Shown: piece by piece, positions 5,836 through 61,086 of the stretch
How the letters are laid out: every line of letters starts with the position of its first letter
How positions within the stretch are numbered: the stretch's first letter is position 1
Assembly (NCBI GenBank): GCA_023159155.1
Contig: JAJNNX010000001.1
Coordinates: 2,108,001 to 2,172,000, forward strand
Length of the DNA: 64,000 nt
Reading direction: 5' to 3'
Source: Ustulina deusta
Taxonomy: Eukaryota; Ascomycota; Sordariomycetes; Xylariales; Xylariaceae
Translations under genes and position numbers: made by a program
The notes under the pieces: model-generated
What the model was told of the DNA's origin: nothing
Database searches by the model: none
The model's input: only the letters and a program-made list of their open reading frames with translations

Positions 5836-6129
5836 TAGGCTTTATATGATATATCGTACGTAAAACAAATAACACACGTAGACAGAATATAATGTATTAT
5901 ACTATATTATCTATAAAAAAAAAAAAAAAAAAGAATGTTTATATAAAGCATAAGTTTTTTATATTTATATAAGAGCTTATGCTATTATATAAGCTAACAT
6001 AACAAAAAAGAAGTAAGGTCCTTTTTGTCCGGCTAAGGTCCGGCTAATATTTATACAAAAGCCGAGCATAAATTCGCACTTTATGCAAGTTATATAATAA
6101 AGTTATAACTAATGCTAGTTATTCTAATA
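5836..6129. repeat. LTR-like repeat A, copy 1
   Basis: First of four copies of a roughly 290-bp repeat. All contain the AAAACAAATAA block, the polyA near the middle, GTCCGGC..AAGTCCGGCTAA, and an end resembling AGTTATTCCAACA. Termini are TG...CA in the least mutated copies, so it behaves as an LTR. Read on the minus strand it would start TGTTGGAATAAC, a start common in fungal LTR elements, so the minus strand is the likelier sense. Confidence 0.75.
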
Positions 6130-37516: not shown

Positions 37517-38889
37517 CTAGAAAATAGGGGCGCTTGCTGGTCTGATATTGATCGTTGTTAATGACAGTCCTAACCATGGTAAGGACATCCAGTGTCGCGT
37601 ATCATGTCTCAGACTCAGCTCAAATTGAATGATGTGTTTTCGTATTAGGCTAAGTCCTACGCGGAGAGCCAAACGTAGCTTTCGACGAGTTTGGCTTGAT
37701 GCTAATGCGACGCGCGCATCGAGTCTAGGCCAATAAGTGTCATTTTGAAACCAGTCACATAAATCTCCAAGATGCAAAAATAGTTGATGTCTTGTTCTCT
37801 TCATCTCGTAGCTCAGTAGCTGAGTTGAGACATGCCAACCTGGCTCGGTTGAAAAAATAGCGCCAGAACGCCTCGGTATCACTGACGTGACTCCTTTATT
37901 GGAGTAACCATATCCCCGTCTCGGGCAATAGGAAGCAATAGCTTGGCTTCGCTGATTGGTGATGCCGTTATTAAGACAGTGTACATCATTGCTCAACCCC
38001 CTTTGGGGATCAGTCAAGTTCTACAATATTAGTAAAACATCTTGCCAAACTTTCGTTCAGAGGCATAATTAACTCACCCGAAGCATCTCCAAATGGGTAT
38101 TTCCAGACGCTACGACAGTCTGAAGTACGCGGGCCAATTCGTCCAAGTTGGCCTTAACTTCGTTCTGAGACTCTCCAGGAGTTGTGTCAGCGTGAATGTT
38201 GATGTGCATTCAGAAGTGAGATACTGCTAACGAGAGTTTTAAAACAATGGCTGTGCTTAAAACTTCGCTAACCTGTTCTACCGCGTTGAAGAGTTGCTCA
38301 TTAATACATTGCTTGATGCCCGTCAATCCTTCCGTTAGCTTAGGCAGAAACATCTCCTGGCTAGTCCGCAGTGCAGCTAGCGACGTCTGGTTTATCGACA
38401 CAATTCGCCTAGTCAGTTCCGCACGGTCAGTTCGCGAAGCTTCTATTATCAAATCATTGCTTACATTGTGACTATACTCAAGGCCGTATCCAAAGAGCTT
38501 TCTGCGTCTCGGATTTCGGCTAGAAGATCTCGAGCCTTCCTCTTGTCGACAGTTGCCCAGTGGATCCTTCCCCTGACAGTCATCGAGTCTATCGTAGGAG
38601 CGTGCTGCAAGCCTTTCAGCTTTTCCAGAGCTTCGGCATTGTAGTCTAAGAGTCTGTAGACAATATCGCGATAGCTTTCTGGGAAAACCTCATCGACGCT
38701 CGAAACGTCTGTTCTCTGTTTCTGAGTCTGTTCAATCAATAGTTTGAAGCGCTCCAGTTTTTCTGCGAGCTTTGTCACTTCTGCCGGTGCTCGAATAATC
38801 GATTGTGTGAGACACCATGCTGATGTGGCTGTTTTGTTGGCCAGGTCGATAAGCTGGCCGACCGAGGCCACCGCACCAAGAGCAGCCAT
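37517..38889 (-). CDS. PigL_N / STAND-type N-terminal domain protein, truncated (383 aa, 4 exons)
   Basis: Four exons on the minus strand: 38889-38465, 38408-38273, 38164-38078, 38020-37517. Introns start GTAAGC, GTTAGC and GTGAGT and end TAG, CAG and TAG, with CTGAC, CTGAC and ACTAAT branch sites. The frame is continuous through all junctions, giving 383 residues. Residues 1-140 (MAALGAVASVGQLIDLAN start, then helical Leu/Glu/Lys-rich sequence) resemble the fungal N-terminal domain found on NLR-like and ankyrin proteins (PigL_N). The last exon has FELSLR and WMSLPWLGLSL, resembling the region before ankyrin repeats in such proteins, but the protein stops there with no repeats. I infer a truncated member lost at the border of the repeat block. 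Function is unknown; relatives act in non-self recognition. Confidence 0.7.
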
Positions 38890-41496
38890 CAGACATTGAC
38901 GAGTAGAAATCGTGAAAGAACGTAGATTTACGAACCGTCCACGGTGGTGAGCCTCATCGACGCCCTGGAAGCAGAAATCTCAGGGACGTGCCTGTCATGT
39001 CGTCTTCTGAGTGTTTGAAGTTTCAACGGACATGATTAAATGATCATATTGGTCTGAGTCCGTAATTCAAGAAAATCTCGAAGATTAGTCGCAGGGCGCA
39101 GCAGTTTTTATAACTGAACCACTGGAGGGGTGTTTTCGACCTGCATGACGGCAAGGCAGAGTCTCGTACAGTGCGAGGCTGTTGGCAGGCTACTAGTAGT
39201 ACTGTAGACTTAATTGACCTCCCTAAAGAGATGTTTTGCAATACATGTAAGTGGTTGATGTTATATACCAAGGTACCTAGGCGGGTTTGGGGGGAAGTGC
39301 TCCCTAGCAAGCGTTGTGTAAGCCTAATCTATATATATTACCAGGGAGCATTGGGCTAACCACGCCGAAAGTATTCGCATAGGAAATCGACTTTCATATA
39401 TTGCCCAGCGAGGCAATCGCAACTGTGCCATTAGAAATTGCGACCCTAATAATTGGAAAGCTTTGCAACCTTCCCGATATTTAATATTAGATCGATCAAA
39501 ACTTCTATATTTGTTTGCAAGCCTCTGATTGGTTTATGTATGTTAAGCCACTTATTTATAGCTCCAAATCTATATTTGTAGCTTAAGCGGTTCTACAGAG
39601 CTACAGGTGCCCCACCGCACAACTCTTCCTTCTACAACACACTTTTCGAGGCACCGTCGACTCGTATCTATCGCGTTCTTTCGCCCGCCCTTCTCCCTTA
39701 AACCACTGTAGATAGCTATAGATAGTTGTTTTTTGTTTGTTTTTTAGTTTGGGCTGTTTTAGGCTACTCTACGAGGCGCTTCCGTAAGCTACGGCCCGGC
39801 CCGTAGAACCGCCTAACACGCTCACGCTCCCCCAATATACGCGTTACTCCACTCCACTAGGTGCCCTGAAGTGTGCTGTAGATATGTAGTTTTTGCTTGG
39901 AATTTTCCTAAATAGCGGTTCAAGGCCTTGAAAGGGGTCCCCCCCTGGTTACGTAGTTAGAGGGGAGGAAATTTTTAAATTGTAGTGCCTTGACTTTGAT
40001 TTACAGCGTACTAATGGAGCTTCGCTGGCAAAGCTTTCCATTTCAGGGATATCCTTAGCCCTACATGGTATTTTTACAGGCTGCACTAATGATTACCAGA
40101 GGCTGGAATTATTACCGGCAGCCAAAAGTATTACACCTGGCAAGCTGTTAAAATTATTGCTAGGTGTATTATTTAGTCCGGTTACGGTTATACTTTATAC
40201 AAGCAATCACAGTGCAATCCTCCGAACAACCTTTTTTTTTCGAAATATGGTTAATTACTACCTGCGGCGATTGATTTCTAGTGGTATCAGTGCTAGCTAT
40301 GCAAAGTTTCTCTAACAATTATGTGAGTTGCCCGGACGCCACCACTCTATTCAATATTCCGCATTCTACCGAATACCCTTTGGCGTGCTACGGTATAGAC
40401 TTACCCACCTTGGGGTACGCGATAGGTTGTGGCTGGTCAAGATGGAGATTTTGGCCTAGACTAGATGGCGGATTGTTGAAATTCGGGATGCAAGTGTTTG
40501 ATATGTACCTAGTACGCATACTGCCCGATAGTGCGGGGGCGATCACGTGCCTAGGGGCAGATGATTACTTGGTAGTAGGTAGGCAGATACATACATACCT
40601 AGGAGGTAGTTTTAGACTATCTAGGTACCTAGACAGACTATTGAGATAGTACCTAAATGTACCTACTAACTATTTTATAGTGGTTAGCCATATGTACCTT
40701 TCACGTTTAAAATAAATAAAAATGCACAGTCACTTCGCATTGACGATCGCACAAAGTTTTGCATTCGCCTAGAGCTTTCCCAACTGACATACCCCCTGGT
40801 GAAAGAGAATCCTGGGCTATTGAGCTAGCAGTAATCATGCTGTGATTCATCACTTACACTCGCTTTCATAGAACCGAGGGCATAGGTAGGTGTATTCTGA
40901 ATATATGTTGTTGCGCGAGAACTGCAGGATTTTCAATGGGTGCCCTCAGAGAACAAGACACAAAACACATTCTATACAAAGCGGTATCTTAAATTTTGGC
41001 AGTGCTCACTGCTATTTATGACAGATTTGATGCCAGGTGGTTTGCTGACCGTTAAATTCTGGTCAGTGTTCGTAGTCACTCGGCCCCTTAACACCTTCGC
41101 GGTTATGCAGGAACGGAAGCCACGCACACTTGCCCCAATAATTTAGGTACCTAAACTTCTCCAGATAGCCGACGGCAGGAAGTCTGGGGAAGGCATGGCG
41201 TTGTGCCGTGTGGTGGAACATGGCTGCTCACGCGTGGCGGTCCGTGGGGAACTCCGTGTGTTCCCTCGCCGACATGACGGACCCAGAAGGGGTTCCGCAC
41301 CCAGTCGCAAGCCGCAAGTTATAGTTTATAAGAACGATTGCCGACCTCCTATAAGCACTAAAACTTAAAGTTATTAGACAAATACATTCCATCACGCTGG
41401 GCGTCATCTGAGCCGCTAAATAGTCACACACCATCGCGTCATTCGGAACCCAAGCCACCCGCCCAAACACCCAATAGCGCATTTCTGTCACTCGAA
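38890..41496. other. Gene-poor intergenic DNA, 2.6 kb
   Basis: No gene supported. Frames up to 122 codons here lack introns, start context and family resemblance. The interval holds several TACCTAGGTA-type runs (39265-39285, 40505-40660), a pyrimidine/T-rich stretch (39725-39760) and two imperfect hairpins near 40101-40170. Composition is ordinary, so it is not part of the mutated repeat compartment. Confidence 0.5.
40101..40170. repeat. Pair of imperfect hairpins, possible end of a small transposon
   Basis: GGCTG (40101) pairs with CAGCC (40119-40123). ATTACACCTGGCAA (40130-40143) pairs with TTGCTAGGTGTATT (40157-40170) with two mismatches and a 13-nt loop. No target duplication or matching second terminus was found. 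Confidence 0.3.
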
Positions 41497-42113
41497 ATGG
41501 CTGCCAACAGAGAAATCACCAAAAACATCTCTTTCGAGGATTACCTCGGTCTGACGACCTGTCTCGTGGAGTGGGCCGACAGTTACGACACGAAGAACTG
41601 GGACAGGCTGCGGAAGTGCATCGCGCCGACCCTGCGAGTAAGAGGAACACCCTCACTTCTCATTCAGATGTTTCCCAAGCTTACAAACTAACCTAACCCG
41701 ATCAGATTGACTACCGCTCGTTCTTAGACAAGCTCTGGGAGGCGATGCCGGCGGAGGAATTCGTCGCGATGATCTCGAGCCCAACGGTCCTCGGCGACCC
41801 GCTTCTGATGACGCAGCACTTCATCGGCGGCACTAGGTGGGAGAAGGTCTCGGACGACGAGGTCATCGGCGTCCACCAGCTGCGCGTGCCCCATCAGCGC
41901 TACACCGACGCCTCGCGCTCCCAGGTCGCCGTGAAGGGCCACGCCCACTCCACTAACACGCATTGGTACAAGAAGGTCGACGGCGTCTGGAAGTTCGCCG
42001 GCCTGGATCCCGAGATTCGGTGGGCCGAGTATGATTTCGATCGTGTCTTCGCTGGCGGCCGTGACGAGTTTGGTACCAGCGATGCTACGAAAGCTGCAGG
42101 CATCCCCGCCTAG
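41497..42113 (+). CDS. SCD1: Scytalone dehydratase (DHN-melanin biosynthesis), 182 aa, 2 exons
   Basis: Dehydrates scytalone to 1,3,8-trihydroxynaphthalene and vermelone to 1,8-DHN, the steps after tetrahydroxynaphthalene reductase in melanin synthesis. Exons are 41497-41637 and 41706-42113. The 68-bp intron starts GTAAGA, has an ACTAAC branch site and ends CAG, giving 182 residues (family about 170-190). Numbering matches the rice-blast enzyme exactly: Tyr30, Tyr50, His85, His110, Ser129 and Asn131 are all present, inside [41 protein letters not shown] and [14 protein letters not shown]. The catalytic set is therefore intact. Val75, whose change to Met gives carpropamid resistance in rice blast, is unchanged. 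The next gene is convergent. No other melanin gene is in the window. Confidence 0.96.
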
Positions 42114-44349: not shown

Positions 44350-47300
44350 TCAATGGTGGCCATGCCCATGTCCGGCTTGAGCGCGTCTAAACCACCTACG
44401 CTTGGGCGCCCCGGTATTCGTGGGCTGGCCCGTTCCAAGTGGTACCCCACCAGTGCCCGTGCCGTATGTACTCGGAAACGGCGGCTCCACTGTCTTGGTG
44501 CTCGTAATCGTAGTCTCGGCAACCGTCACCGTAGCATAGACAGTCGATATCGTAGGATCGCAGATGCACTGGCCATCCTCTCCCTGGTGTCCCTGTGAGG
44601 GGGTCACATGCGCCGTCTCGATGTGCGTAACAGATGAAGTAATAGTTGTGACATCAGGCGGAGGAGTCTCTAGCTGCCGGGAAATCGTACTGTTGACAGA
44701 CAGGTTTCGCCATTAGTAGGCTGATCTCACTGCCTAGAGGGCTTTGGAAAGGAACGCGCGAGGGAGTGTCGGGAAAAGAGAAGAAAGGCATACTAACCTG
44801 GAAGAACTCATTTCTATCGTGCTTTCAATCTCGGTCATCGTGTAGCTTGGCACGTCCGCGGGTATTGTCTTATCAGATACAGGACATACCGTAGTCGACA
44901 CAGCAATGATTTCAGTAGTAACGGTAGCAAACTTAGACCTAACACAATTCGACGTACGCGCATCGCAGTATGTAGAACTAACACTATCACTAATCATAAC
45001 AGTGTAAACTGTTGTAGAATATAGCGTCGATGTCGTGTATACCGGGGCAGGACTTGAAGCAGTCAAAGATGAGGAAGAAGGAAGCTCCGCTAGAGTGGAC
45101 GATGCCCCATTTGCGAACGAAGGGGTCGACTCAATGCTAGTTTCAGAAACCGCAGTGCTGGTAAGCAAGGATGAAGTGGTGGACTGGTCTTTAACGGGAC
45201 AGACCGTGGTATATATTGGCACCAGCTCTGTAGTAACCGAGCCGATATTCGAAGAGCATTCGATAGCCCCAGGTGCACAAGAGCTGACGGTGTACACACT
45301 GCTAGTGTAAACTGTAGACGTAGTGAGCACTATATCAGAGGATATTGGGCTATTCAACGGTACGGTTAGGGAGTATGACGGGACCGATGAAGCGCTAGTG
45401 TGAATTGTGATATCTGATGACTCTTGAAGACTGGTTGTGACCCCCTGTTCGACAGGACAAATGGTGGTGTAAAGCGATACAAGCTCCGTAGTCACTTGGC
45501 CCAATCGGGCAGGACAGTTCGTGACGGTCGGAGCGCAGGAAGTAATCGTGTAGATGTTGGTTGAATAAACAGTAGAAGTCGTTAATTCAACCGGGGTGCT
45601 GGCAGGTGAATTAGTCGGGCTTTGGGTCACAGTCGGAAGGCTTCCGCTTGCTGGCGCTGTGGTATTTGGGTAGATAATACCTGACATGACGACTGACAAA
45701 GAAGTACCCAATGAAGGCACCAGGTTCGTCGTCAGGGAGTCACTCGATACTAGTGAGGGGGGTGATTGGGAATGAAGGGGGGTTGGAGAGCTAGATATTG
45801 AGGTGGAAGATATTGACCCTGTGGTGCTATCCACTTGGCTTGGCTGTCCACTGAATGTCGTTCCATCTATGACAGTGTTGGTAACTGGGCAAAAGGTGGT
45901 GTACATCGATACGATTTCGGTTGTGACTTTGCCTACTGGGCAGTTTTTAACGGTTGGCGCGCATGATGTGATAGTGATGATGTTTGTTGAATAAACCGTC
46001 GACATGAAAGAAGTCGTAATCTCGGAACTGAAAGTATACGTCGTGGGCATTGTTTCAGACGAAACATTTGAAAATATGGTCGAACTCAGGGACGCAAAGC
46101 TACTAAGCGACGAACTGCCCGTCATTAGAGAAGAGGAAAGTGCCGACGACGCAGATAAGGTCCCTGACGGGGCAGGAGTCGTAACCCCAATACTTGACGA
46201 CCCCGAGCCTTTTGAGGTAGAGACCGAGGCGGTTATGTGTGTCGCTGGGTATGTTCCATTGAAACCGGGCATTGACGATGTACCGCTATATAGTGCTCCA
46301 GAGCTAGTCCCCAAGAACAAGGAGCTCAGGCTGCTAAGGATGCCTCCAGTGCTAGACGATGAAGCAACCGGGTAGCCACCAACGATAGTTGAAGGCGTAA
46401 GTTCGGAGGAGGCAGCGGATGAAGCAGGTGTAGGCTGGCTTGTAGTGGTATTGCTTACAGGAGAACCCGATAAATAACTTGAAGCGACTGGGTAGCTGCC
46501 GGCGATAGCTGAAGGCGTAAGTTCGGAGGAGGCAGCTGATGACGCAGATATCGACTGGCTCGTAATGGCATCGCTCATAGGGGAAACCGGTGAAGAGACT
46601 GAAGGGCTGGACGATGACGCGTTACCGGTACCAGCAGGTTCTGATACTATTGAAGTGGGATATATGCCCATGGATTTCACGGGGATAAGAGTCTCAGCGC
46701 CGGGGCTATCCTTAATTATTTCTGGTAGAGTAGTTGAGGCTGAAGTAGATGCGGAGGAGGGACTACAGCCGTCGTGAATTTTATCGATGCCAGTAATCTT
46801 CCCACTCTAAGTTTTGTTAGCATGAGTCCGTTCTATTATAGAAATACATACTCTATCCTGATATTTGTATTGGCAGGCCGGATACTTGTTGGTGATATTG
46901 ACGCTCCGCACATACATGGTATAAGGGACACTCTTCATATCGATCTCACCGCCAGCCCATTGAATTGTCCAATAATTGTTAGAAGGATCGCCCCCTCCCC
47001 AGACACCTAGCTGCAACTTCATAGGCGACTGCGGAAAGATAAATCCCGATGGGGTGTTCGAGGCTTGGGCGCTTCGGACAACTTGATTGTCAACGTACCA
47101 ATTCATATGATTTTCGTCCCATTCTACTGAATACGTGTGAAACTGTGTCGTCGGATTATGTGCATCCTTCTGGTAGGTAGCTGCTCCATCCCACATCTTT
47201 CCCTGGGCGAATATGTTCGTCTCGACCGTCCACTTTCCATCTGGGGGTGGAAACGGCTGCTCCCCATGTTGGTTGCCTGAGAATTCCCAATCAATCTCAT

Positions 47301-47667
47301 CTTGGATATCGGACCAAAGTACCGAGCTACTGATTATTCCCTGGCCCGGCGCAATTTGCAATTCGACATCATATCTGCCCCCGAGCATATAGAAGTCGGT
47401 CCACATGTTCGGAGCATCACCTCTCTTTGCATATGTAAATTCAGCCCCCTGAGGGGTGAAATTGATGACCTCATCGTTGGCAATAATCCAGTTTTTTGGT
47501 GGCCCCGTCTCTTTCGTGAAGTCGATGTAGTAGTTTTCCTCTGGCCAAGCCTTCTTCGCTGGGCAATCAGCGTGAAGAGGGTTACAGTCGGGTTCGAGTT
47601 GCCCATTTACGAACCGCGTGGCGAGTCCCAATGTGCTAAGTAAACCAATGAACTTTCTTATCGGCAT
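44350..47667 (-). CDS. Crh-like GH16 cell-wall transglycosylase with long Ser/Thr-rich extension (1054 aa, 3 exons)
   Basis: Crh proteins cross-link chitin to beta-glucan in the fungal wall. Exons 47667-46852, 46806-44798 and 44689-44350. Introns of 45 bp (GTATGT, GCTAAC, TAG) and 108 bp (GTTAGT, ACTAAT, CAG) keep one frame. Signal peptide is residues 1-22, then the conserved C28/C35 pair. The catalytic motif DEIDWE is at 123-128 (Glu124 nucleophile, Glu128 acid/base). A WAGGEID motif is near 240. After residue 273 comes about 750 residues of Ser/Thr-rich sequence with four modules of the form TVYSTNxxTxxSCAPTxxNCP..VTTExVxxYTTxCPV (about 538-582, 682-725, 768-812, 862-915). The C-terminus is KRRWFRR then GHGHGHH, with no GPI signal, unlike most Crh enzymes. 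The downstream exon lacks its own start and signal peptide, supporting one joined gene. Confidence 0.82.
46361..46600 (-). repeat. Two tandem 120-bp repeats in the GH16 Ser/Thr region
   Basis: 46361-46480 and 46481-46600 are near-identical over the first 80 bp and recognisable over the rest. They encode two 40-residue units with ASSAASSELTPS and YPVASS (residues about 341-421). The period is a multiple of three, so length change keeps the frame. Confidence 0.85.
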
Positions 47668-48697
47668 GTTTACGACCTTGCGTATGGTCTATTACTATTT
47701 TTAATTAGATTTACCGTTAGAGAAGGGAGCTTACGAGACGAGTGCGCCGCTCAGACGGCATTTTTACCTGCCCATATCATTAAGGCTTGTGATAAAGAGT
47801 CATTGTGTCGGTGCATCACGGAGTAATTAACAACAATGTCAAAGCAAGTATGAAAGAGGTCGTGAGGCTAGCCCCCAATCCGGTCAATATCAATACTAGG
47901 CTCCTTATATTAACGCGATTCGTAGTGCCCTCTTGGATGGGGCTAAATTCCTCTCCTCAATGAATACTAAGAAAAGCATTTGCCTTCTCACAATCCCCTT
48001 TCACAACGACTTTAGACAGCAAACAGTAGCGGTGGATCCTCCAAGAATTCTTCGAAAATCTCTTTATAATCCCTGACTAAGACCAATATTTGGCAATTTC
48101 CACAACTCCCCTTGCGGTCGCCCGCCGTGAAATTAAGAGGCAAAGGAGACTATTGTCATCGCTATTTTGTTTTGAACTCTTAAAAGGCAGACAGTTTTAC
48201 GAATACTTCTAAGCACGTAACTTAGGTAATATAACTTGTGAGCTAAACAAAGTTGCAACATTGAATATTGAACACTGGGTACGATGGTCTCTGCCGACTC
48301 ATCGTAGCGGCGCAACGGTCTCACCGGTTCTGCCGCCCCGGACCACCCTCTCCTCGTAGCCGTCGGGTCGTCAACAGTGGATTGTCGACTGGATCCATCC
48401 CGCAGATTTACAGCAGAACCACGGCACCATTCTTGCACCCTTCATGTCACGATCTCGAAGCTTTTAAGACGCTCACACTTTAATTTCCATGTTATAAGAA
48501 CACTACAAGGTGTAAGGAGCAAAGTTGGCACAGAGGCCCCTATTCCACACTCGCCTGTTCTCAGTTGATATAACCCTGTCTGAATGCTCTCCTTCGTTCA
48601 ACACTTTCCCACCAGACTACAAGACTAAGCAGATGAGTCTTAATGTCCGCGTTTCCCAAGCATTTCGGCATTCTTGTCATAGGCACCAGCCTTGGTA
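47668..48697. other. Intergenic region, 1.0 kb
   Basis: Upstream region of the GH16 gene and 3' flank of the peptide precursor gene. Several overlapping frames (up to 101 codons) exist but none shows a signal peptide, splice structure or family motif. No clear TATA box before the GH16 start. Confidence 0.45.
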
Positions 48698-49379
48698 TTA
48701 CTCAATAGCAATAATCGGGATATCTTTGGCTCGCTTCCCAAGGACCTCAGCCGGGTCAGCCGCCGCAACATCCTCGTCATAGGCGCCGGCCTGCTTGTTG
48801 CCCCCAATCAAAGACACAATAGCTGCAATTGGGATGTCTGTTCGTTTTCCAAGGACCCCAGCCGGGTCAGCCGCCGCACCATCCTTGTCATAAGCGCCAG
48901 CCTTGGTGTTGGGCCCGACCAGAAACAAAATGTCCTCCGGTGAGATGTCTGTTCGTTTTCCGAGGACCTTGGCAGGGTCGGCTGCCGCAATATCCTCGTC
49001 ATAGGCGCCGGCTTGCTTGTTGCCGCCAATCAAAGAGACAATCGCTGCAATTGGGATGTCTGTTCTTTTTCCGAGGACTTCGGCAGGGTCGGCCGCTGCG
49101 ACATCCTCGTCATAGGCACCGGCCTTAGTATTGCCTCCGATCAGGGACACAATAGCTGCAATTGGGATATCCGTGGGATTACGCTTGTTAAGATGCTCGT
49201 TAGAGTTACCTGGAAACATCAGTTAAGAAGCAGGCTCATTTCTCATTTCGATGTGGCATGTCTCAAGTCAACAAGGCGGGATTTTGCATACCGGCTTGAG
49301 TGTTGCGGAGCTGGAGTGGGTGGCCGATGATGGTGGTCGCCATGGCTAGCACCAGAGTGGATTTAAAGAGGAAGGCCAT
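48698..49379 (-). CDS. Kex2-processed repeat peptide precursor, dikaritin-like RiPP candidate (199 aa, 2 exons)
   Basis: Exons 49379-49292 and 49209-48698. The 82-bp intron starts GTATGC, ends CCAG and restores one frame. The first exon supplies a signal peptide (MAFLFKSTLVLAMATTIIG) and short pro-region; the second supplies a Lys-Arg at 38-39, four 37-residue units (42-78, 79-115, 116-152, 153-189) each ending GKR, and a 10-residue partial fifth unit. Each unit begins TDI, has a hydrophobic first half and an acidic second half with AGAYD-D-AAADPA-VLGKR. Tyr is the only aromatic residue in units 1, 2 and 4. Known family: fungal precursors such as those of ustiloxin and phomopsin are cut at KR by Kex2 and cyclised through Tyr by UstYa proteins. 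Here the core and product are unknown. A plain secreted repeat peptide is the alternative. Confidence 0.85.
48731..49174 (-). repeat. Four tandem 111-bp coding repeats in the peptide precursor
   Basis: Units at 49174-49064, 49063-48953, 48952-48842 and 48841-48731 (minus strand), exact 111-bp period. Units 1, 2 and 4 are almost identical at DNA level; unit 3 differs through its first 45 bases (encoding ISPEDILFLVGPN) but is near-identical afterwards. The 30-base tail (48730-48701) repeats the DIPI start. Confidence 0.95.
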
Positions 49380-49489
49380 GTTGATAGGAGTCTTGGTAGT
49401 AGTAGTAGTCTCTGTATAAGCAGATTTATTCTTGATAGTGGGTTATGTTTGGGAAGTAGTTTTACATCTCTTGGGATGGATGAGTCCTC

Positions 49490-49495
49490 TTTATA
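49490..49495 (-). promoter_or_regulatory. TATA box of the peptide precursor gene
   Basis: TATAAA on the minus strand, 111 bp before the ATG at 49379, followed by a CT/CA-rich leader with repeated CTA just before the start codon. This is a standard layout for a strongly expressed fungal gene. Confidence 0.5.
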
Positions 49496-50186
49496 GACGA
49501 CGTCGGCTGTTCCTAACATGAGAACCTGGTTGCGTCGTGTTCGAACAGAATTCACTCGCATTGCACCCAAAAGCCAGCGCATAGCGCGGGTACTCCAAGA
49601 AATCAAGAGTAGTATAGAGAGTCGAGAGATGACGATTTCCTGGATGATATCCCGCCGATCTCCGGTTAAGCTGGTCGCCTCTAGCTCATGTTTGTCTCGA
49701 AGATCTATATTTCATGGTTATTCATCACGTAATAGTGTCAGTGCTTTGGGGCTCTGCCTCCATAAACTGGAGTTTACTGGTTATCAAAAACCGCCTAGTA
49801 ATATCGCGTCCACAAGATGTTGTGCATGGAGGACTTGTCGAGCCGGATCTGCCGCGGGTTACATCCGCAACACAGCAACTACTAATACCTGCAGCTACCC
49901 TGCATTAGCGTTGTTGTTAATCTGGTTCAACCATCACAGGCAATGCAGGAACGTATGTCAGTTACGCAACCCCAGAACAACATGAAAGCAGGTCTCAGCA
50001 CAACCCGCCGCCCGCAAGCCTCCCGATCGCGAATCTTGGCAGCCTTGGGCAGCTACTCCCTTTTAACTACGTCTGTAGCTAACATTTTATCGGCTCTTAC
50101 GACAGCGTAGTTAGCTCACAGAATTACGAGCCTTGATAGAACCCTCTATATTGCCGCCCCTGGCAGCGTTCAAGTTTTTTTTTTTT

Positions 50187-50204
50187 GGGAGGGAGGGAGG
50201 GGGG
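50187..50204 (+). other. Potential G-quadruplex motif
   Basis: Four G-runs separated by single A bases (GGGAGGGAGGGAGGGGGG), right after a T12 tract. It meets the usual G3+N1-7 rule and lies in the divergent promoter region. Confidence 0.6.
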
Positions 50205-50828
50205 CTACTTACTAAGCTGCATATAAGTTCCAATACACTTACTAAGCTACCGATGGCATGAATGATGATGACTTCGTCTCCCAGCTGAAGAAGATTCCGC
50301 GGTACACTAGGCGTCTAGACTGCAGTCTAGACGGCGCATTCAGCTCCTGTGAAAATCACACCGGTTACCTATTGCGGTATTGCACAGTCGGAAACAGGGA
50401 TCACTACACCCCACAAGAGCCAAATATGCCGACATCGTGGATTTGATCCAACTCCCGACACTAAACCATTTGCCAGAACTCACATAGTGGCGAATGGCAC
50501 TTTATGTCGTGCGATGTAGATCCACGAAGTGTACAATCTACCGCACCGGGAAGGGCGTCAATGAGCACGCCATCACCAACTATCAAGCTTGTGAGGTCAT
50601 CCAGCTTGAGAGTGGGGAAAGGAAGGCTTGGATGGCAGCATAGTCTTTTTCTGGGATATCTCCATGGCTTGTTGGTGACTCGCCAAATGCGGTGAAATAT
50701 AATACAAGCCCAACTAATCAACGTAAAGTGCTTCCCTTGAGATATACCAACTCCCCTTTCTGGTGCCTCTAGAATTAACCTCACCTTCATCGATCTCAAC
50801 GTAGATGACAAGTTAGCTATAGTCAATC

Positions 50829-51877
50829 ATGGGGTTCTCTAGTGCATTCCGGTACTCGTATCTTGCTTCTCAAGGCACATCCTCCGAGTCTGTAGAAGAG
50901 CAGCATCTCGTTCACCAGCACGACCACTCCGAAAAGACAGGAGCCCAGCTTCCCGAATCACGGTACCACTTTTATCTCCTTCGTTTTTTCCCTGTCTTCC
51001 CATGGATTCTAGCTGTCGTGAGTACTGGATTGCTCCTATACAGCGTCTTAAGAGTTCCAAACGAGCTCACATGTACACGACTTCTCAACCCATACTGTTA
51101 GTATTGCACTGCCTGTCGAGCTTTCTCAGTGCTGACGTTCCAAGCAGCACCAGCCATCGAGGACGACATCGTCGAGTATTACGACACCAACTTTGAGAAC
51201 GAATTTGCGCACAAGACGAAGTATAGGGGGCCGCCAACTCCGGAAATAGAGGCGGCGTGGGATCGAATTTGGAACTGTATGTTGGCCCGCTTTTTCACAG
51301 ATAGATAATGAATGAGCCAACAGGTTCATGAGCCAGTTGGCGGCATAGAAGTGCCACTCGACGGTCCAGCCCGACTAGGAAAAGCGTCCAAAAGTTTCGT
51401 CCACGTCGACTGGGACGAAGCCCGAGGATACAGCGGCATGTTGGAGGTTTTCCATCAACTGCACTGCTTGGTACGTGATGCGGATATTGCCCGCCGCTCT
51501 GCACATAAACGCCCGTCTGCTAACATCTCGACGACAAGAACTTAATTCGGCAATATACTTGGAAGGATTACTACAACGACAACCTACGCGAGTGGCTCGA
51601 AGAAGGTGACAATCATCTGTTCGTCGATTTGAACGTATCGAGCCACGCCTCTGTGGGCGACCGCATGCATGTAGACCACTGCATCGAGACATTGCGCTTG
51701 CAACTCATGTGCAATGCCGATTTGACGCCGATGCTGGTGCTGAAGGATGACAGTGTTGCTATCGGAACCAAGGCGGACTTCGATGTCCACCACAAGTGCC
51801 GACGCTGGGATAATGTTGTCGCGTGGCAGCGCATTCATACAACTGACAAGGAAGCCAGCGGGCTAAGGCCGTCGTAA
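50829..51877 (+). CDS. UstYa/DUF3328 family protein (about 294 aa, 4 exons) with a reading-frame conflict at intron 2
   Basis: UstYa-family proteins catalyse oxidative cyclisation or hydroxylation in fungal RiPP and other pathways. Exons by splice signals: 50829-51096, 51148-51276, 51324-51470, 51539-51877. Introns 1 and 3 are clean (GTTAGT/CTGAC/CAG; GTACGT/GCTAAC/AAG) and keep frame. Intron 2 has a good donor (GTATGT, 51277) and acceptor (CAACAG, 51323), but joining them shifts the frame by one base and meets a stop. Family features all present: cytoplasmic N-terminus, membrane helix (residues 54-75), NPYSPAIED..YxxxxF, YRGPPTPEIEAAW, and both copper-ligand-type motifs HQLHCL (51453-51470) and HVDHCIETLR (51668-51697). 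The downstream exons lack other damage. Either the gene is freshly frameshifted, an unusual splice is used, or there is an assembly error. It is divergent from the precursor gene. Confidence 0.85.
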
Positions 51878-52860: not shown

Positions 52861-54007
52861 CTAATTGGATGGAAGATGCGGCCCTTGACCTCCCACCGGC
52901 GGATCCTGTTGCACGGCCTGCCCGTGTGCGTACCACTGGGAATAAGGATCTTGTCCCCATGCTGCCGTTGGGGGCGGAGCATTGCGGGAAGGCTCAGGAG
53001 GCGGCGGGGCTCCGTATCCAGGCTGTACATTATATCCGTAAGTGTCGCGTAGGAGTGGGTATGAGCCCTATATACCGTTAATACCCTCACGGGATTAACG
53101 GCGTCGTTTTTCCGTGACAGTAAGGGTATGGATAATTCGGCGGCAACGGCGGGAACTGTGCTGGACCTTGGGGGTTGGCACCCACAGGTAGCGGTGCTGC
53201 GGCTGCTGCCTGTGGAGTAGAAGTCGGCGCCATCGGTCGTGCAAAAGGTTGCGTTGCCTGAGGCGAAGGCTGCATGTGCTGCCCCGGCTGCAGGCTTGTC
53301 TTCGGCACGGCCTTGCGGCATTTTCCTTTTCTCCCATCATTTTCCTCCTCCAATGCGCGAATCAGGATCTACTTCACCTAAGTCTCTGAGTCTTTGCCAC
53401 GTACTCTGTTAAGGTACTTTATAAACTCCAAGTAGGCATTCGAGACCGTTTCCAAGTTGCTCTTCGCTCACACTATAGTGGCGTTCGCGTCCACAGCTCT
53501 CTCGTAACTAGATCCTTGGGCACGGTACTCAGCCAAAGACAGTGCGGTCTGGCAAGCGTTGCGAATTTGCCTGCCATTCAACTGTTCGTGCGGGTGGTCG
53601 TTGAAGTAGGTTCTGGCAAACTCGAGGATTTCGTCCTCCCCAATCTAGATGCTTCATTGCTTCGATCCGAAGCGCTCATTAATCAAGCCAATATTGAGCC
53701 TAAAAAATGCCTCAGTAGCGGCCATGTCGACTTGTGGATAGTAGAGGCTGATGTAAATCCGGGAGGCAAATGCCTCATCGAAATCTCTGACTTGATTGGT
53801 TGTGAGGAATAAAATTCCGGCATAATATTCCAGGACGCGCAGGAAGACTGCTGTTGTCAGCATCTGTGTACGCTGGGACGTACGCCTAACAAACCTGATA
53901 CTAGGCCGTTTCGCTTGAGGTCCATCTTGGAATGAGTAAGCTAACACCCCCCCTTGCGAACCACCCCATCGCGACCCAGCTAAAAACGCGCTACTGACCC
54001 CAACCAC
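52861..54007 (-). pseudogene. AAA+ ATPase, 3' fragment with several in-frame stops
   Basis: C-terminal part of a large fungal AAA-family ATPase. The minus-strand frame has VFLRVLEYYAGILFLTTN (sensor 1), then DFDEAFASRI (arginine-finger region), ISLYYPQVD, GEDEILEFARTYFNDHP, QLNGRQIRNACQTALSLAEY (lid) and TVSNAYLEFIKYL. A Pro/Gln-rich tail ends at TAG (52861-52863). A small intron at 53894-53851 (GTTTGT..CAG) is retained. The frame is broken by TGA at 53654, TAG at 53645, TGA at 53468, TAG at 53378 and TAG at 53369; all could be single C-to-T or G-to-A changes. Walker A and B regions are missing because the gene runs into AT-rich DNA at about 54010. It is non-functional. Confidence 0.88.
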
Positions 54008-54011
54008 CTCA

Positions 54012-55429
54012 ATTAAAAATTGTTAAATAACGCAACCGCGTTCAGTTCTTATGTTCTCTTTTTACCTTTATTTTCTTTAGAATTAATTTCTTTTTATTAT
54101 AATACTTTTATATAGCAACTAATAATATGCGGCAGCTATAGTTTGTACTGTTTAATTTAGTACTTTGCAAAAATAAATAATTATTTAATAAAATATTAAC
54201 TAGTTATATATATACTGCTGCTTTAATAACATTTTAACTAAAAAATATTTATATTAATATTTTTAGATCTTATTTATATATTTTAAAACTAAACTAGCTA
54301 ATTAAGCTATAAGTTAAGCTAAGTTAAACTTTATATTTTTAATAGTTAAATTTAAATATATAGCTAAATATATACTATTAGTTTTTAGAAACCTTAAAAT
54401 ATTTAAAAAGTTATAATATATATATATATTTTTTTATAATCTTGAGCTAAAAACTGCTAGATTAATATTTATTAGCTATTTATATATTAATAAAGCAACT
54501 ATAGCTAATATTAAACTATTTTTTAAATATTTTAAAACTTTTAAACTAGCAAATATATTTTTAGAACAATTTTTTAATATTAATAAAATAAGTATTAGCT
54601 AAAGTATGAAAAAAAGTTTTTAAGTTATTTATAAAGCTTTAATATATATAGTTTTAAAAAAAATATTAAAATAAATAAATAAATAATATTTTTTAAATAT
54701 ATTAGTAATAAAAATATTGTTTTATTACTATTGCTTATTTTTAAAAAATTTAATATTTAAAATTAATAGTTTTTAAATATAAATTATAATTTATTTAAAA
54801 ACTAGTAGTTTAAAACTTTATTTAATAAATAGATCTATAATTTTATTATTATTAATTAGCTTATTAATATTTTTATTTTGTTTATTTAAAGCTATTTTAA
54901 TAATATATAAGTTATACTAATATATAATAGCTATAACTTATATATAAATAATAATTTTTATAGCTTTATTCTTTATAAACTATATTATAGCTATATGATA
55001 TAAGTATTAAATATTAAAGTTTTTAGTTTATTATATAAAAAAAATTAAAAATAAAATTAAAAAAATATTTAAAAGCTGCTTTAGCGTTATATTTTTAAAA
55101 AAAAATATAATTATAATATATAAATAGGCTTATAATACTATTTTATTACTAAAAACTATTAAAAAAATATAAATAATAGCTAAAATATAGCTAAAAAATA
55201 TTTAATTACTATTATTTTTAAAATATATTATATTTAAAAATAAAAATATTGCTTATAAAGTTTAACTAATACTTATATTAACTAATTAATTTAAAATATT
55301 TAAATATTAGTTTAAACTAAGCTAAATAAAAATTGTAATATTTATAAAAAACTAAAATTTATAATATATAATTCGGAAATTAGCTAGGTATTAATTTTTT
55401 TTTAATAACCTATTACAAAAGCTATTTTT
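54012..55429. other. AT-rich degraded repeat DNA, family not identified
   Basis: Starts abruptly after the ATPase fragment. No readable coding stretch, LTR or shared repeat. It separates the island from the inverted gypsy copy. Confidence 0.5.
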
Positions 55430-55494
55430 TGTTACAATTAGTCGAGTAAAGCTTCTATAGCTAGTTTATTAATACTATGGACAAAGACTCTAAG

Positions 55495-55528
<34 letters not shown>

Positions 55529-55669
55529 AAAATTTATAAGGTAGGTAGATATAAACTCTGTATGTATAGCTGCAGAGTTATAGGTTAGTCTATACGTAGA
55601 TTTTTTATTTTATTGCTATATAGGTCTGGAGTTCTTATAAGTTTTGCTAAAACTGTACTAACTATTATA
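55430..55669 (-). repeat. Inverted LTR of the same gypsy family as 31028-37198
   Basis: Reverse complement matches the 247-bp LTRs: CTGTACTAACTATTATA corresponds to the LTR start and TGTTACAATTAGTCGAG to its end, with CTCTGCAGCTATA and TATTAATAAACTAGC blocks between. An A-run near 55499-55526 replaces the pyrimidine-rich tract of the other copies. More mutated than 36952-37198. Confidence 0.85.
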
Positions 55670-57270
55670 TTTTTTTTTTTAAAACTAAAAGTTTAAATAT
55701 AGTTTTAACTCAAAGTTATTAATAATATTAAGTTTATATAGTTTTTTTATATTATATTGTTTTATTATTATTTTTATAATTATTTATAAATTTATTAACT
55801 ATTATTATATATATTTATTTTTATAATCTTATAAAAAGTTTAAAAGTTTTTTTATAAGTTTTATAAAATTAGTTAAGCTTAATTAGTATATTTTTAAAAT
55901 TTTAGGCTATATATTAAGTATTATTAGGATTATAGTTTTTTTAAGCAACCTAGTATTATAGCTTTTTGTTTTTTTTATATATTTTTAATTGTTTAATTTA
56001 ATTAATTTTAAATTTTGTTTTATTATTAATATTTTTAGCTAAAAATAATAATTAAATTTATTAAAATAAAAAATTATTGCTTATTTTTTATAATTAGTTA
56101 ATATAAAATAAGTTTTTTATTTTATAAAAGTTAAACAAGTTAAAAATATAGCTAAATTTTTATTTTTTTAAGATTTTAAAAAGTCTAACTAACTAAAAGT
56201 TTAATTTAATAGTTAGTATTTATATTATAAAGCTTTTTTTTATTAAAAAGATTTTATTTTTTATTTTAAAATTTATTAGGCGTTTTTTTTTTGTTAGTTT
56301 ATAGTTTGTATTATTTTTATGTAAGGGTTATTATATTATATATTATTTTTTGAACGTTTTAGGTTTAATAGACTAGTTTGAGCGTTTGCTGCTTAGCATT
56401 AAAATTTGCAATAGTTTTATTAATATTTATTATTAAAAGGTTTTATGTTTTAATTTTTATTGTTATTTTTAATAATAATATATTAATTAATAAATATTAT
56501 AAAAAATTATATATAAAGTTTAAAGCAAGGAAATAAATATTTTAATTGTTTTAATATTTATTAATATAAAAATAAAATTATTAATCTAATTTTTAATTAA
56601 TTAATTTTATTGCTTTTTAGGTTTAAAAATAATAAATATTACTAAAATAATGCTTAGTGCTTATAAAACTATTAATTATTACTATAAATTTAAAAATAAA
56701 CAATTTTATATTATTTAATATTTATATATCTAGTATATTAAAAAATCTATATAAATTTTTATAGTATTATATAGCTAGTAACTTTATAATATTTATTTTT
56801 TTGCTAAATAAAGTTATAATTAGATAGCTAAACTTGTTTATAAATATCTATATATAGTTATAATTTTATTAGTTAGATAATATATTTTTGCTATTTATTA
56901 TTATATATTACTATATTGCAACTAGTATAAATAATAAATAAAAAAAGCTAGAAGTTTTGTTTTATAGTATTTTGTTTTTTTTATAGTTATAATAATTATA
57001 TATATATTATTTATAATTATATTTTAAATAAAACTAATAATATTTTTATTTTAATATTTTAATTGTTTTGTATTACTTTTGGTATATAGTAATTAAAAAT
57101 ATATAAACTTTTGAAATTAAAGCTATATAAAAAAAAATAGTCCTATTCAAGGTAACCTTAGGTATATATAGCTTTTTATTTTTATTTTTTAGATCTTATA
57201 ACTAGTTTTTTTATTTAATTAAGTTTATTAGGTTAGTTTTTAAAAAAATATTAGGTAAAAGGTCTATAGT
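55670..57270 (-). mobile_element. Ty3/gypsy chromovirus copy 2, inverted and truncated (integrase to LTR)
   Basis: Minus-strand sequence is collinear with 35330-36950 of the first copy. Integrase residues around NQKLDQ..FYINKY..NNxNIYF lie at about 56510-56670, and the ATATACC(A)AA block at 57060-57090 matches 35545. Homology ends at about 57270, where an LTR of another element begins, so RT and gag are absent. Confidence 0.8.
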
Positions 57271-57514
57271 TGTCGGATTTAGTGTTATAGAGCGTACCGC
57301 ATATATATCTTTAGATCGCCTTGTCTATTATTGTTTTTTGTAAGTCTTATTTTTCCTTTGTAAGATATTTATTTATAAGCTTGCTAGTAAGTATGGCTAG
57401 GCCACACTTACTAAGCTACGTTATTAAGCTATAACACTTATATAACTAAATAATCCTGCTATCTATACTTAATTAGTTTTTTTTATAGCTACTAGCTATA
57501 GGCTAAATCTAACA
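57271..57514 (-). repeat. LTR of a minus-strand copia-type element
   Basis: 244 bp with complementary ends: TGTCGGATTTAG at left and CTAAATCTAACA at right, that is TG...CA in either sense. On the minus strand a purine-rich AAAGGGGTA tract precedes TGTTAGATTTAG, as a polypurine tract precedes a 3' LTR. No second copy in the window. Confidence 0.65.
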
Positions 57515-58204
57515 TACCCCTTTAAGAAAAATTACTCTAGTGACTCTTTTTATATATATATTACTATAGCTATAAAAGTAGTTATAAGTGAGTGTTAAGG
57601 CATAGATAGTATATAAGTAACTAGTATAGCATACAAATGATTACGTAGGCTAGTTCTGAGTGTTATACATATTACTATGCAACTATTTGAAATATAGCAT
57701 GGCAAGCTCGGTAGGCAAGAACATTTATAGGAAGGTGCGCTTATAAGTACAGTATACACAAGCTTACTTCTAGTATTACTAGAGTTTTTTTTTTTATTTT
57801 TTTTTTTTTCTAGCTTTTATAAAATTTTCGTAGTAAGTTCTTAGAACTAAAATATTAAACACTTTACCCTTTTGCAATAAGATCTATACTAATCTTTTTT
57901 TTAGTTTTAATTATAAAATTATTTTTTGCTAATATATTACTAACTATTAAAGAAAAAAGGGTATTTTTATTATAAGTTTTAAAAAAACTTTAAATTATTT
58001 AGTAAAAAGCTCGCTAATATATATAAAAAAAACTATTATAATATTTCTTTTGCTTTTTTTTTGCTTAAATTATAGTAGCTAGCGCTTTTAACTAGGCTAG
58101 AACTTATAAATATAATATATAACCGTTTTTTAAATTAATAATTAATAGGCTTATTGTTAGTTCAAAGTTATTATTATTAAATAGTAATAATATTTTTGTA
58201 TATT

Positions 58205-58470
58205 TTTTGCTTTGCTTTTTATTTGTTATAGAGCTTCCGGCGTATTGTATTTTTACTATTGCTACTACTACTACTACTCCTTTAACGCCTTTCCGCCGAG
58301 CTCCCTTTGCTACTACTATTACCCCTAGGATGGCTAGTTTTTTACTAGCTTCGCCTAGCACCTACTATTTGGCTTTTAGCCGGGTTATTCCAGTTATACC
58401 TATACTACTGCCAGTTCTGCCTAGTCAAACTTCTGGTGGCTGGGGTACTACGCTTACTACTATTGCTTTT
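58205..58470. other. GC-richer, weakly mutated patch with TAC trinucleotide runs
   Basis: Composition is clearly higher in G+C than the surroundings. It includes a run of CTACTACTACTACT (58262-58277) and open frames on both strands (97 and 85 codons) with low-complexity Thr/Ser or Val/Ala products. No family recognised; I do not call a gene. Confidence 0.4.
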
Positions 58471-60750
58471 TATAGTTATAGCTATATTTTACTTTTATAG
58501 CAAGCCAGTTCCTATTTATAGCTAATATTTTTAAGGATTTTTCAAAAGATACTATATTTGTAGTATACCTATAATACTTTTTAAAGTTATTTAGATAGCA
58601 ACTATATTAAAACACTTAGTAATAAGTTGTAATACTTATAGTATGCCTTTAGATATATATATAAGCTTTTATAAGTAAGCTTTTTAATAATTAATAATAA
58701 GTACTAATTATAAATAGCCCTACTAATATTAAGCTTTATATTTGTTATTTCTAGGATGCTCTTATAAAGAGCGCTAATAACGCTACTATTTAAGCTCTAT
58801 AGATTATGGTCCGTACTATACTATCCCTTTATTGCTTAAAAGAAGAAAAGAAAAAATAAATGTTTTTTTTTTTTTTTATAAGCTTTTCGCCATTCTATAG
58901 CAGGATCGGTGCCTTCTAGGGTAGTTAAGTTTTTATATTATTAGCTCTAGGGCCCTTTAAACATATAAAAACACTTTGTAATTTTTTTATTAATATATTA
59001 TAAATTTATAATTTATATTTAAATAATATTTAAATATTTTATTTTATAGATTTCCTTTTAAGTAGTAAATTCTTAATTTTTTTTTAAAAGACTAATACGT
59101 TTTACTAAGCTTTTTGGTTATGTTTAGAAAGCTTATATAATTTGAGCTATTTTAAAAAAGTTGTTTATTTTAGTATAGGTAAAGCTTTTATAAGTCTGTT
59201 AATAATTATATTGTTAGTAAGTATATATTTTATTATAATAGTTTTATTTTTAATTTTTTAGCGTAACTAGTGGTTATAAATATTAATATATTGTAGTTTA
59301 GTGTATAATAAGGCTACTTTTTTTATAATAAGCCTTATAGTTTGCTAATTATTATATTATATTTATATTTACTAATTCTATAGTACTACTCCAAGCTTAT
59401 TAATAAGCCGGTTAATAAATATTGCTTTTTTAGCTGCTTGGGCTAAAACTAGAAGCTTTGCTTTAGTTGTGGATGTAGTGACTATATCTTGTTTATTGGC
59501 TTACTAGTAGATTATTCCTTTAAAAAGCTTTATAATATAGGCTTAGGAGCTTTTTTAATTAAGGGTATTATTTATAAAAAAAATATTATTAGCTACTATA
59601 AAGTTATTTTTATTTTTAAATTGTAATGCGTAGTATTATATAAAAAGTAGGTATAATAAAAGCCTATTAGTAGCCTAGTAGTACTCGGGGAAAAGATTAT
59701 AGTTAAATTATGTAAGCTTAAAGACTTTAAATATTATATTTAGACATATTATTACTATAGCATATAAGATCAACTTTATTTTTTATTAGTAGCGCTTGAT
59801 ACTAGCAAATATAAAGATCTTTTTATATAAAAAAAACTTTTAAGCTTTTATTAAAGTAGTTATATAAGCTATAGCTATAATATTTTGTAGCTTAGCAATC
59901 TTTTTGATATAGAAGGCCTATAAAAGCTAAAGAAAGCTTTTTTCTTTGTTTCTGATTACTTTAACGCTTAGGAACTATTATAGGTTTTTACCCCTAGTAA
60001 GGTTATAGCATATTTTAAGTGCGGCAATTGTTTTATTTATGGTTTTTTAGCTTTTTTGCTTATATATTATAACTATATTATTAATATATATAAATAGGAG
60101 TATATTTTTTAAGGAGTAGTAGCAGGGTTTATGGGGTATTGGTTTAAAGCCTATTTTTTATAGTGACTTGGTAAGCTCTTTTTATTATAGCAAGGGAGAC
60201 TTTCGGAGCTTGTATAAGGCTTACAGTAGTTTAACTATAATATTTGGCTTTTAGTAGCCTAGAGGTATATATATATAGATCTCTTTATTTAATTTAGTAT
60301 TTATAAAAGTATTTATAATGTTATATTGCTTAAGTTCTAAGTTAAACTTAGTAGCAATAGCTATTAATGTCCTAAAAGATTTTTTTGCTAGTATACTAGT
60401 ATAGGTATCTTTTTGGTTATTATTTGGCTGCTGATTTTTTTATACTATTAGACAAGCTTTGCATTTTTTATAATACTTATATTTATTAAACTTATAAACA
60501 TAAACCTATATATAGTCTAAAATGATCTTTTTTTATAAGGAGCTTTTAGGTATTTCTTTTTAAGTACTTATTTTTTTATAGCTTTATAAATAAATAAGTT
60601 CTGCTTATTTAAAGTAATCTCTTAACAAGTAGTTTATAAAATCTTTATACTACTTTAATAATTATAATAGATTTTGTTAGTATATCTTTTTTTTTTAGTT
60701 TAAAAAAGTTTATAATTAAACTTTTAAATAATTAGTATTTAACTTAAAAG

Positions 60751-61086
60751 CTTTTTTTTTTTTACTAGTAGAGCTTTTAATAAAATTTATTAGCTATAAT
60801 TAGTTGTATAATAACTAATAAGTTTTTCTAGGGGCTTTTTTTTTTTTATTAATAAAGCTTTTAATAGGATTTAGTAGCTATAATCAGGTATATAATAAAT
60901 AATAGGCTTTTTTAAAGGCTTTTTCTTTTTTATTAGCAAAGCTTTTAATAAGATTTAATAGCTATAATTAGTTGCGTAGTAATTAATAAGCTTTTCTAGA
61001 GGCTTTTTTTTTTTTACTAATAGAGCTTTTAATAATATTTAACAGCTATAATTAGTTATAGTAGATTTTTAAAAAACTTTTTAATA
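60751..61086. repeat. Minisatellite, four copies of 84 bp
   Basis: AGAGCTTTTAATA-type anchors fall at 60772, 60856, 60940 and 61024, exactly 84 bp apart. Each unit has a T-run, TA(C/T)TA(G/A)(T/C)A, AGCTTTTAATA, TAGCTATAATTAG and TCTAGAGGC-like blocks. The period is 28 codons. It lies inside the copia remnant; the last unit decays at its end. Confidence 0.85.

Follow-up and report, generated by a model that had tools for sequence, protein, structure and literature searches.

The locus analysed here raises the question of whether a short spliced gene with an internally repeated coding sequence encodes the precursor of a modified secreted peptide and, if so, which neighbouring gene could act on its product. 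It lies in a window of 64 kb (the whole stretch of DNA that was analysed), bases 2108001-2172000 of contig C1, from the 56-Mb genome of Ustulina deusta, a wood-decay fungus of the Xylariaceae. In the initial annotation, positions 48698..49379 had been read as a Kex2-repeat precursor of candidate dikaritin type, with a spliced first exon, a signal peptide, a Lys-Arg pair after the pro-region, four exact 37-residue units ending in GKR and a partial fifth unit. The structure of the gene is the following:

49292..49379, minus strand: precursor exon 1 (from translation, in-frame join and hydropathy; conserved in P0002-P0005; Nemania match)
49379-49323, minus strand: signal-peptide-like segment, about residues 1-19 (from hydropathy)
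49210..49291, minus strand: predicted precursor intron, 82 nt, GT...AG (from the sequence; relatives annotated across the same junction)
48698..49209, minus strand: precursor exon 2, with the remaining pro-region to KR, four units, a truncated fifth unit and the stop
49064..49174, minus strand: unit 1 (U1), 37 aa, ends GKR
48953..49063, minus strand: unit 2 (U2), 33/37 identical to unit 1
48842..48952, minus strand: unit 3 (U3), the divergent one, with 24-26 of 37 residues shared with the other units and Gly at Tyr+4
48731..48841, minus strand: unit 4 (U4), 35 of 37 residues shared with U1 and with U2
48698..48730, minus strand: incomplete fifth unit of 10 residues before the stop codon (X. 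grammica EKO27_g9904 ends alike)
48640..48697, minus strand: coding remnant resembling a unit, read in a different frame beyond the stop (from three-frame translation; ORF 48640..48807)

The coordinates first proposed for the gene are right, with the ATG at 49379 and the stop codon at 48700-48698 on the minus strand, and the predicted precursor comprises 199 residues. Exon 1 carries the start codon, the signal-peptide-like segment and the first part of the pro-region, and its translation joins that of exon 2 in frame across the 82-nt intron, whose position had also been correctly anticipated. Annotated relatives from Xylaria and Nemania continue ungapped over the exon junction (HPLxSRNTQAG...), and the Nemania diffusa relative gives a separate exon 1 match in the U. 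deusta genome (E 0.0015) that runs slightly into the intron. The signal peptide is supported by hydropathy, the sole measure applied, with a maximum of 2.34 over nine residues in a hydrophobic N-terminal segment conserved in relatives, and both the Lys-Arg pair that closes the pro-region (as NKR) and the partial fifth unit are present in the translation. Among the 136 ORFs of at least 60 aa in the window, the precursor alone has both repeated peptide words and dibasic sites; a further ORF, rich in Ser and Thr, shows repeated words but lacks any dibasic pair. No Pfam match was obtained for the exon 2 ORF up to E 0.1, a search of the 56-Mb genome with the precursor's own sequence, in which one candidate was scored, returned one match and no second locus, and no relative was found in the viral contigs scanned with the precursor alignment. 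A U. deusta precursor protein is absent from the matches of the protein search, in which the best named match has 66% identity, so the gene has apparently escaped annotation.

Regarding the repeats, their number, their length of 37 residues and the GKR at the end of all four are as originally described, and NKR plus two residues precede U1. Their supposed exactness did not hold, as U1, U2 and U4 are identical at 33-35 of 37 residues and U3 matches the others at 24-26. The codon differences among U1, U2 and U4 fall mostly at third positions, with 11-18 synonymous versus 2-4 non-synonymous changes, dN of 0.02-0.06, dS of 0.55-1.48 and dN/dS of 0.02-0.05 in pairwise comparisons. These three units are under strong purifying selection and, since their DNA differences are mostly silent, it is the peptide that is conserved and not the DNA repeat. 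Constraint on U3 is weaker, with dN/dS of about 0.10 versus U1, 0.33 versus U2 and 0.53 versus U4. The latter values, the 11-13 of 37 residues at which U3 differs from the other units and the unit-like reading that persists out of frame beyond the stop are what would be expected if the U. deusta copy were decaying, with a drifted third unit and a broken fifth one, and yielded no product now. The strong purifying selection on the remaining units speaks against such decay, as do the intact and annotated frame of the neighbouring UstYa gene (see below) and the fact that X. grammica P0004 also ends in ...DIPIISIE after its last KR, like the truncated fifth unit of U. deusta. Because of this identical ending the truncation is probably no assembly error, and it is probably old and tolerated. 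Altogether, the chance that this copy is a decaying one is slim.

The initial annotation overlooked a divergently transcribed UstYa gene located 1.4 kb from the precursor. The two genes stand head-to-head, 1,449 bases apart, as follows:

49380..50828: intergenic region between the divergently transcribed precursor and UstYa genes
50829..51096, plus strand: UstYa exon 1, with a hydrophobic transmembrane-like stretch by inspection (gene model)
51148..51276, plus strand: UstYa exon 2 (gene model, annotated protein)
51337..51470, plus strand: UstYa exon 3, first HxxHC (HQLHC) at 51453-51467 (gene model, annotated protein)
51539..51877, plus strand: UstYa exon 4, second HxxHC (HVDHC) at 51668-51682 (gene model, annotated protein)
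51097-51147, 51277-51336 and 51471-51538, plus strand: UstYa introns (gene model)

The four-exon model (50829-51877) corresponds to the annotated protein F4824DRAFT_441285, with 100% identity over 289 aa; in U. deusta, the UstYa gene has therefore been annotated and its neighbour apparently missed, small spliced precursor genes being easily overlooked by annotation. The protein scores 169.7 bits against PF11807 (cut-off 25) and displays the paired motifs that define UstYa/DUF3328 proteins, HQLHC at residue 172 and HVDHC at residue 221. A search of the PDB up to E 10 gave no sequence relative. For the DUF3328 protein CctR, two coppers per monomer have been measured and the HxxHC pair has been proposed as their site, according to PMC12435403. 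The 45 PF11807 matches in the genome were grouped by hand into 26 loci, the neighbour of the precursor included, and the chance of a position falling less than 2 kb from any of them is about 0.24%. Taken together, the two genes very probably form a minimal UstYa-type RiPP locus, in which a dikaritin-like precursor would be processed by Kex2 and modified by the UstYa protein.

The precursor lies in a 17-kb island (37-54 kb) of 38-56% G+C between very A+T-rich blocks. The latter, at positions 1-37000 and 54000-64000 of the window, have about 10-27% G+C and look like repeat-mutated DNA; a tandem array with an A+T-rich unit of 84/168 bp occupies 60744-61102. Within the island, a glycosyl hydrolase family 16 ORF (46807-47688, minus strand, 123 bits) is followed by a 690-aa Ser/Thr-rich ORF (44734-46806, minus strand) with a two-copy 120-bp tandem repeat at 46360-46604, and the whole of 44734-47688 (minus strand) is presumably a cell-wall enzyme of CRH-like type. 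A scytalone dehydratase ORF, of a melanin-pathway enzyme family, is located at 41697-42113 on the plus strand (PF02982, 229.8 bits), and a HeLo-domain match slightly below the curated cut-off (21 versus 23.2 bits) at 38461-38979 on the minus strand.

The search of fungal proteins that had been suggested with the first description of the unit was productive, giving eight relatives directly and 34, those eight included, with a profile, in both cases among the roughly 8000 candidates sharing most words, the only ones scored. In the Xylariales, relatives are found in X. grammica (two genomes), Nemania diffusa, Nemania sp. NC0429, X. palmicola, X. digitata, Xylariales sp. 14919 and Xylariaceae sp. 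AK1471. A UstYa relative lies on the contig of the precursor in five of these eight genomes (X. grammica EKO27, NC0429, X. digitata, 14919 and AK1471) among the matches listed, the best 120 of 234, with "same contig" being taken from the equal size of the contigs of both relatives. The tags of the pair are consecutive in two cases (EKO27_g9904/g9905 and ANO14919_134290/134280) and close in Nemania NC0429 (400930/400928). The other three genomes show no same-contig UstYa relative among the same best 120 of 234 matches; the UstYa relative listed for X. palmicola (P0046) is on a different contig from the precursor, and so is that of X. grammica F5X98 (P0111). Seen from the enzyme side, no precursor was found on the same contig for 11 of the 17 closest UstYa proteins (P0009-P0025) among the matches listed, which may reflect missing annotation. 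In a UstYa tree of 50 of the 52 rows P0009-P0060 (two proteins shorter than 190 aa were omitted), all six paired proteins, that of U. deusta included, fall within one 18-row clade with support of 99/96. The "paired" label needs four changes on this tree, a number that fits unannotated precursors in other species, without proving them.

This recurrence bears on a second explanation of the locus, namely that the repeat protein is cut by Kex2 into linear unmodified peptides (signal, pheromone-like or membrane-active) and that the UstYa protein acts elsewhere. By inspection, the unit has a hydrophobic N-terminal half and an acidic C-terminal one, a composition that would suit such peptides, and no additional tailoring gene was found near the precursor in Pfam scans, nor any tyrosinase on its contig. 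In addition, PMC7329392 reports a DUF3328 gene nearby for only 22% of the Kex2-processed repeat proteins (KEPs). However, the same source places mating-factor and pheromone KEPs, three exceptions aside, away from DUF3328 genes, the precursor-UstYa pair recurs in five of eight Xylariales genomes among the matches listed, and a Tyr is present in all 75 units counted (see below). We consider it unlikely that the peptides are linear and unmodified. A reading as a mating factor or alpha-pheromone was discarded on the grounds that the exon 2 ORF has no Pfam match and a UstYa partner is present.

Beyond the Xylariales, distant relatives of the precursor occur in Didymella (Dothideomycetes) and in Letrouitia and Lecanora (Lecanoromycetes), and the similarity is mostly to the C-terminal half of the repeat, [AP]Y[DQ][DE]x[VI]xA...[DN]Pxx[VI]LG, followed by KR. 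It is important to note that this wider family rests partly on the link provided by P0008 (E 8e-4), since this protein was in the profile query. Anchoring on the end motif, and not on the Tyr, yielded 75 units (31 of Xylariaceae type and 44 others), a count that misses ends off the anchor (the first units of P0132 and P0139 and the unit of P0150) and to which the incomplete P0154 contributed none. The Tyr is present in 75/75 units and Val or Ile occupies Tyr+4 in 74/75, the exception being the Gly of U3 in U. deusta; this conservation is supportive and not independent proof, because the search itself favours conserved positions. In the metagenome proteins P0001 and P0006, the main unit alternates with a second, shorter one, which ends in KR, has no Tyr and was left out of the 75.

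The distribution of the dibasic pairs along these proteins is informative about processing. A KR or RR stands behind 40 of the 43 inner units and behind just 5 of the 32 C-terminal ones, the latter defined as lying within 15 residues of the C-terminus of the protein, in a set of related proteins whose cases are not independent. The pairs are thus mostly retained where a cut is needed and lost elsewhere, as for cut sites. Moreover, among the 20 terminal units from outside the Xylariaceae-type set, 18 have ..VLG or a near equivalent as their very last residues. The combination of this dibasic pattern with terminal units that end like trimmed inner ones suggests that the mature peptide probably spans the entire unit as far as ..VLG (35 residues in U. 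deusta) and is no short core. The linear monoisotopic masses calculated for these 35 residues are 3396.730 for U1, 3436.809 for U2, 3457.725 for U3 and 3423.741 for U4, with 3607.826 for the first unit when NP is included; each crosslink would lower them by 2.016. Both observations argue against an unprocessed secreted structural or surface protein with incidental KR pairs, given that the terminal units of the wider set end where the mature peptide would. Cell-wall proteins can also have repeats and a signal peptide, and the Ser/Thr-rich repeat ORF at 44734-46806 is close by; even so, a structural protein is barely credible as the product of this gene.

Returning to the preferred reading of a modified, Kex2-processed peptide, the question arises of whether such pairs exist elsewhere in the genome. 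Of the other 25 UstYa loci, 20 were covered, each within a stretch of 9.9 kb, with the 64-kb window itself as the sole background, and tandem-repeat ORFs were found at 10 of the 20. Eight of these ten loci have three or more [KR]R pairs, while L037 and L033 have none or one. The eight repeat ORFs near UstYa genes with at least three [KR]R pairs are:

L032, C47: 5307-6191
L028, C45: 7246-7728
L038, C42: 5159-5554
L035, C47: 3409-3921
L025, C59: 7109-7390
L030, C65: 7843-8187
L024, C34: 3237-3506
L026, C75: 6196-6636

The units differ among all eight. L043 (two rows), which has ankyrin-like repeats and no dibasic site, was not counted as a repeat locus, and neither the Ser/Thr-rich ORF of the window nor three frames overlapping the repeat ORFs of L028, L032 and L035 were counted as repeat rows. 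The precursor locus is accordingly one of many UstYa/repeat pairs in this genome, which strengthens the reading while making the find less surprising; as a reference, the Ascomycota average given in PMC7329392 is 5.25 KEPs per strain. At L037 (C13:71000-80900), UstYa matches are accompanied by a repeat ORF (5661-5924) that lacks [KR]R pairs and by tyrosinase-family matches (C13:74403-75145), which would make it a fuller dikaritin-like cluster than the precursor locus.

The conserved motif was also sought at the DNA level. Across 56 Mb, a Y...DP pattern matched at five places and its reversed control at none. Three of the five are at the precursor, one contains an in-frame stop (C2:984629, dropped since the stop occupies its second codon) and the last lies within a C91 repeat ORF beside another UstYa gene. 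Hence, the motif is common to two distinct repeat ORFs, each next to a UstYa gene of its own. The C91 ORF (L033 5921-6367, the same as L013 1273-1722) looks secreted and resembles the precursor in adjoining a UstYa gene and in the kind of end motif (PY.DAVDAANPAEVLG), but its repeats are different, it lacks the KR spacing and it has a single copy of the motif. When this genome was searched with P0136, the precursor locus and, very weakly (E 1.77), the C91 ORF were recovered; the N. diffusa relative and P0143 recovered the precursor locus alone and not the C91 ORF.

These data fit with a scheme in which the precursor would enter the secretory pathway and the UstYa protein, by family a membrane-anchored copper enzyme, would oxidatively modify each unit. 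The most likely site of modification would be the only Tyr of the unit, within the conserved A-Y-D-E/K-D-V/I stretch. Kex2 would cleave behind the terminal KR of every unit, and this KR would be removed by a carboxypeptidase, releasing peptides of about 35 residues ending in ...VLG. The C-terminal half (Y..D[VI]...DP..VLG) could constitute the recognition segment, probably with the modified residues. Cutting by Kex2, the action of the UstYa protein on the precursor peptide and the copper chemistry are proposed from what the families are known to do, and a secreted bioactive peptide would be the product to expect on the same grounds. A link between the side chains of the Tyr and the Val or Ile at Tyr+4 is a speculative guess from conservation.

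A broader proposal can be put forward tentatively, although the odds are against it: the C-terminal motif [AP]-Y-x-x-x-[VI]-x-A...[DN]-P-x-x-[VI]-L-G before KR might mark an undescribed class of long (~33-36 residue) UstYa-type peptides common to the Xylariales, Didymella and lichen fungi, with a ring from Tyr to the Val or Ile at Tyr+4 unlike ustiloxin-type cores and an N-terminal half free to vary. In practical terms, the shared C-terminal half offers a sequence handle on a precursor family in Sordariomycetes, Dothideomycetes and Lecanoromycetes. For the lichen RiPP clusters, in two clans of which PMC12048977 describes the repeated precursor as not found, it is a concrete thing to look for, and the conserved Tyr together with the Val or Ile at Tyr+4 leads to a direct mass-spectrometric prediction.

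How does the locus compare with known systems? KEPs are Kex2-processed repeat proteins defined, as stated in PMC7329392, by a signal peptide and at least three tandem repeats of 8-100 residues between KR, KK, RK or RR; the precursor has such repeats and, on hydropathy, the signal peptide. With 7878 proteins of 838 types in print according to that source, unfamiliar repeats are the rule. The initial annotation considered the unit unlike known ones, and, within the main text of the papers searched, five longer unit strings gave no match. KEP type G-6 is described in PMC7329392 as Tyr-containing and DUF3328-linked, and as including Hypoxylon, Monosporascus, Aspergillus, Penicillium and Colletotrichum, whereas no Aspergillus, Penicillium or Colletotrichum appears among the named profile matches of the precursor. 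The same work finds Tyr in 65.6% of the KEP repeats near DUF3328 genes and in 38.2% of the others. Ustiloxin-like clusters have been reported from some Hypoxylaceae (PMC8403587), and at least one RiPP sequence from free-living Xylaria (PMC10119272).

Measured against the five-gene definition of the dikaritins given in PMC12048977, the locus has the precursor with a leader and repeated core/recognition motifs. Instead of multiple DUF3328 genes, the window holds one UstYa gene, and the next PF11807 match on contig C1, the only other one there, is about 1.08 Mb away; a single DUF3328 protein is also what PMC7329392 describes for the asperipin-2a pathway. The genome has 23 PF00264 (tyrosinase) matches among the best candidates scored, none of them on C1, and no methyltransferase, peptidase or transporter was seen when 18 out of 24 ORFs of at least 110 aa were scanned against Pfam, a scan that spliced genes could escape. 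The comparison with the dikaritin precursors is one by description, and the same applies to the epichloecyclins (GigA), for which an ustiloxin-type precursor and DUF3328 genes are described in PMC7329392 and PMC12048977. The precursor departs from ustiloxin, phomopsin and asperipin-2a in its 37-residue units, in a Tyr located well inside the unit, in the lack of a tyrosinase match on its contig, and in having Val or Ile at Tyr+4, whereas in ustiloxin and phomopsin the Tyr and Ile that are joined lie two residues apart according to PMC7329392. With these dikaritins it shares predicted secretion, Kex2-bounded repeats, a UstYa/DUF3328 neighbour and a Tyr in every unit. The dikaritin-type reading offered at the outset is supported by the UstYa gene 1.4 kb away, the pairing in Xylariales and the dibasic sites on inner rather than terminal units, and the best reading is that the precursor, while short of the strict five-gene definition, works like that of a dikaritin or KEP RiPP.
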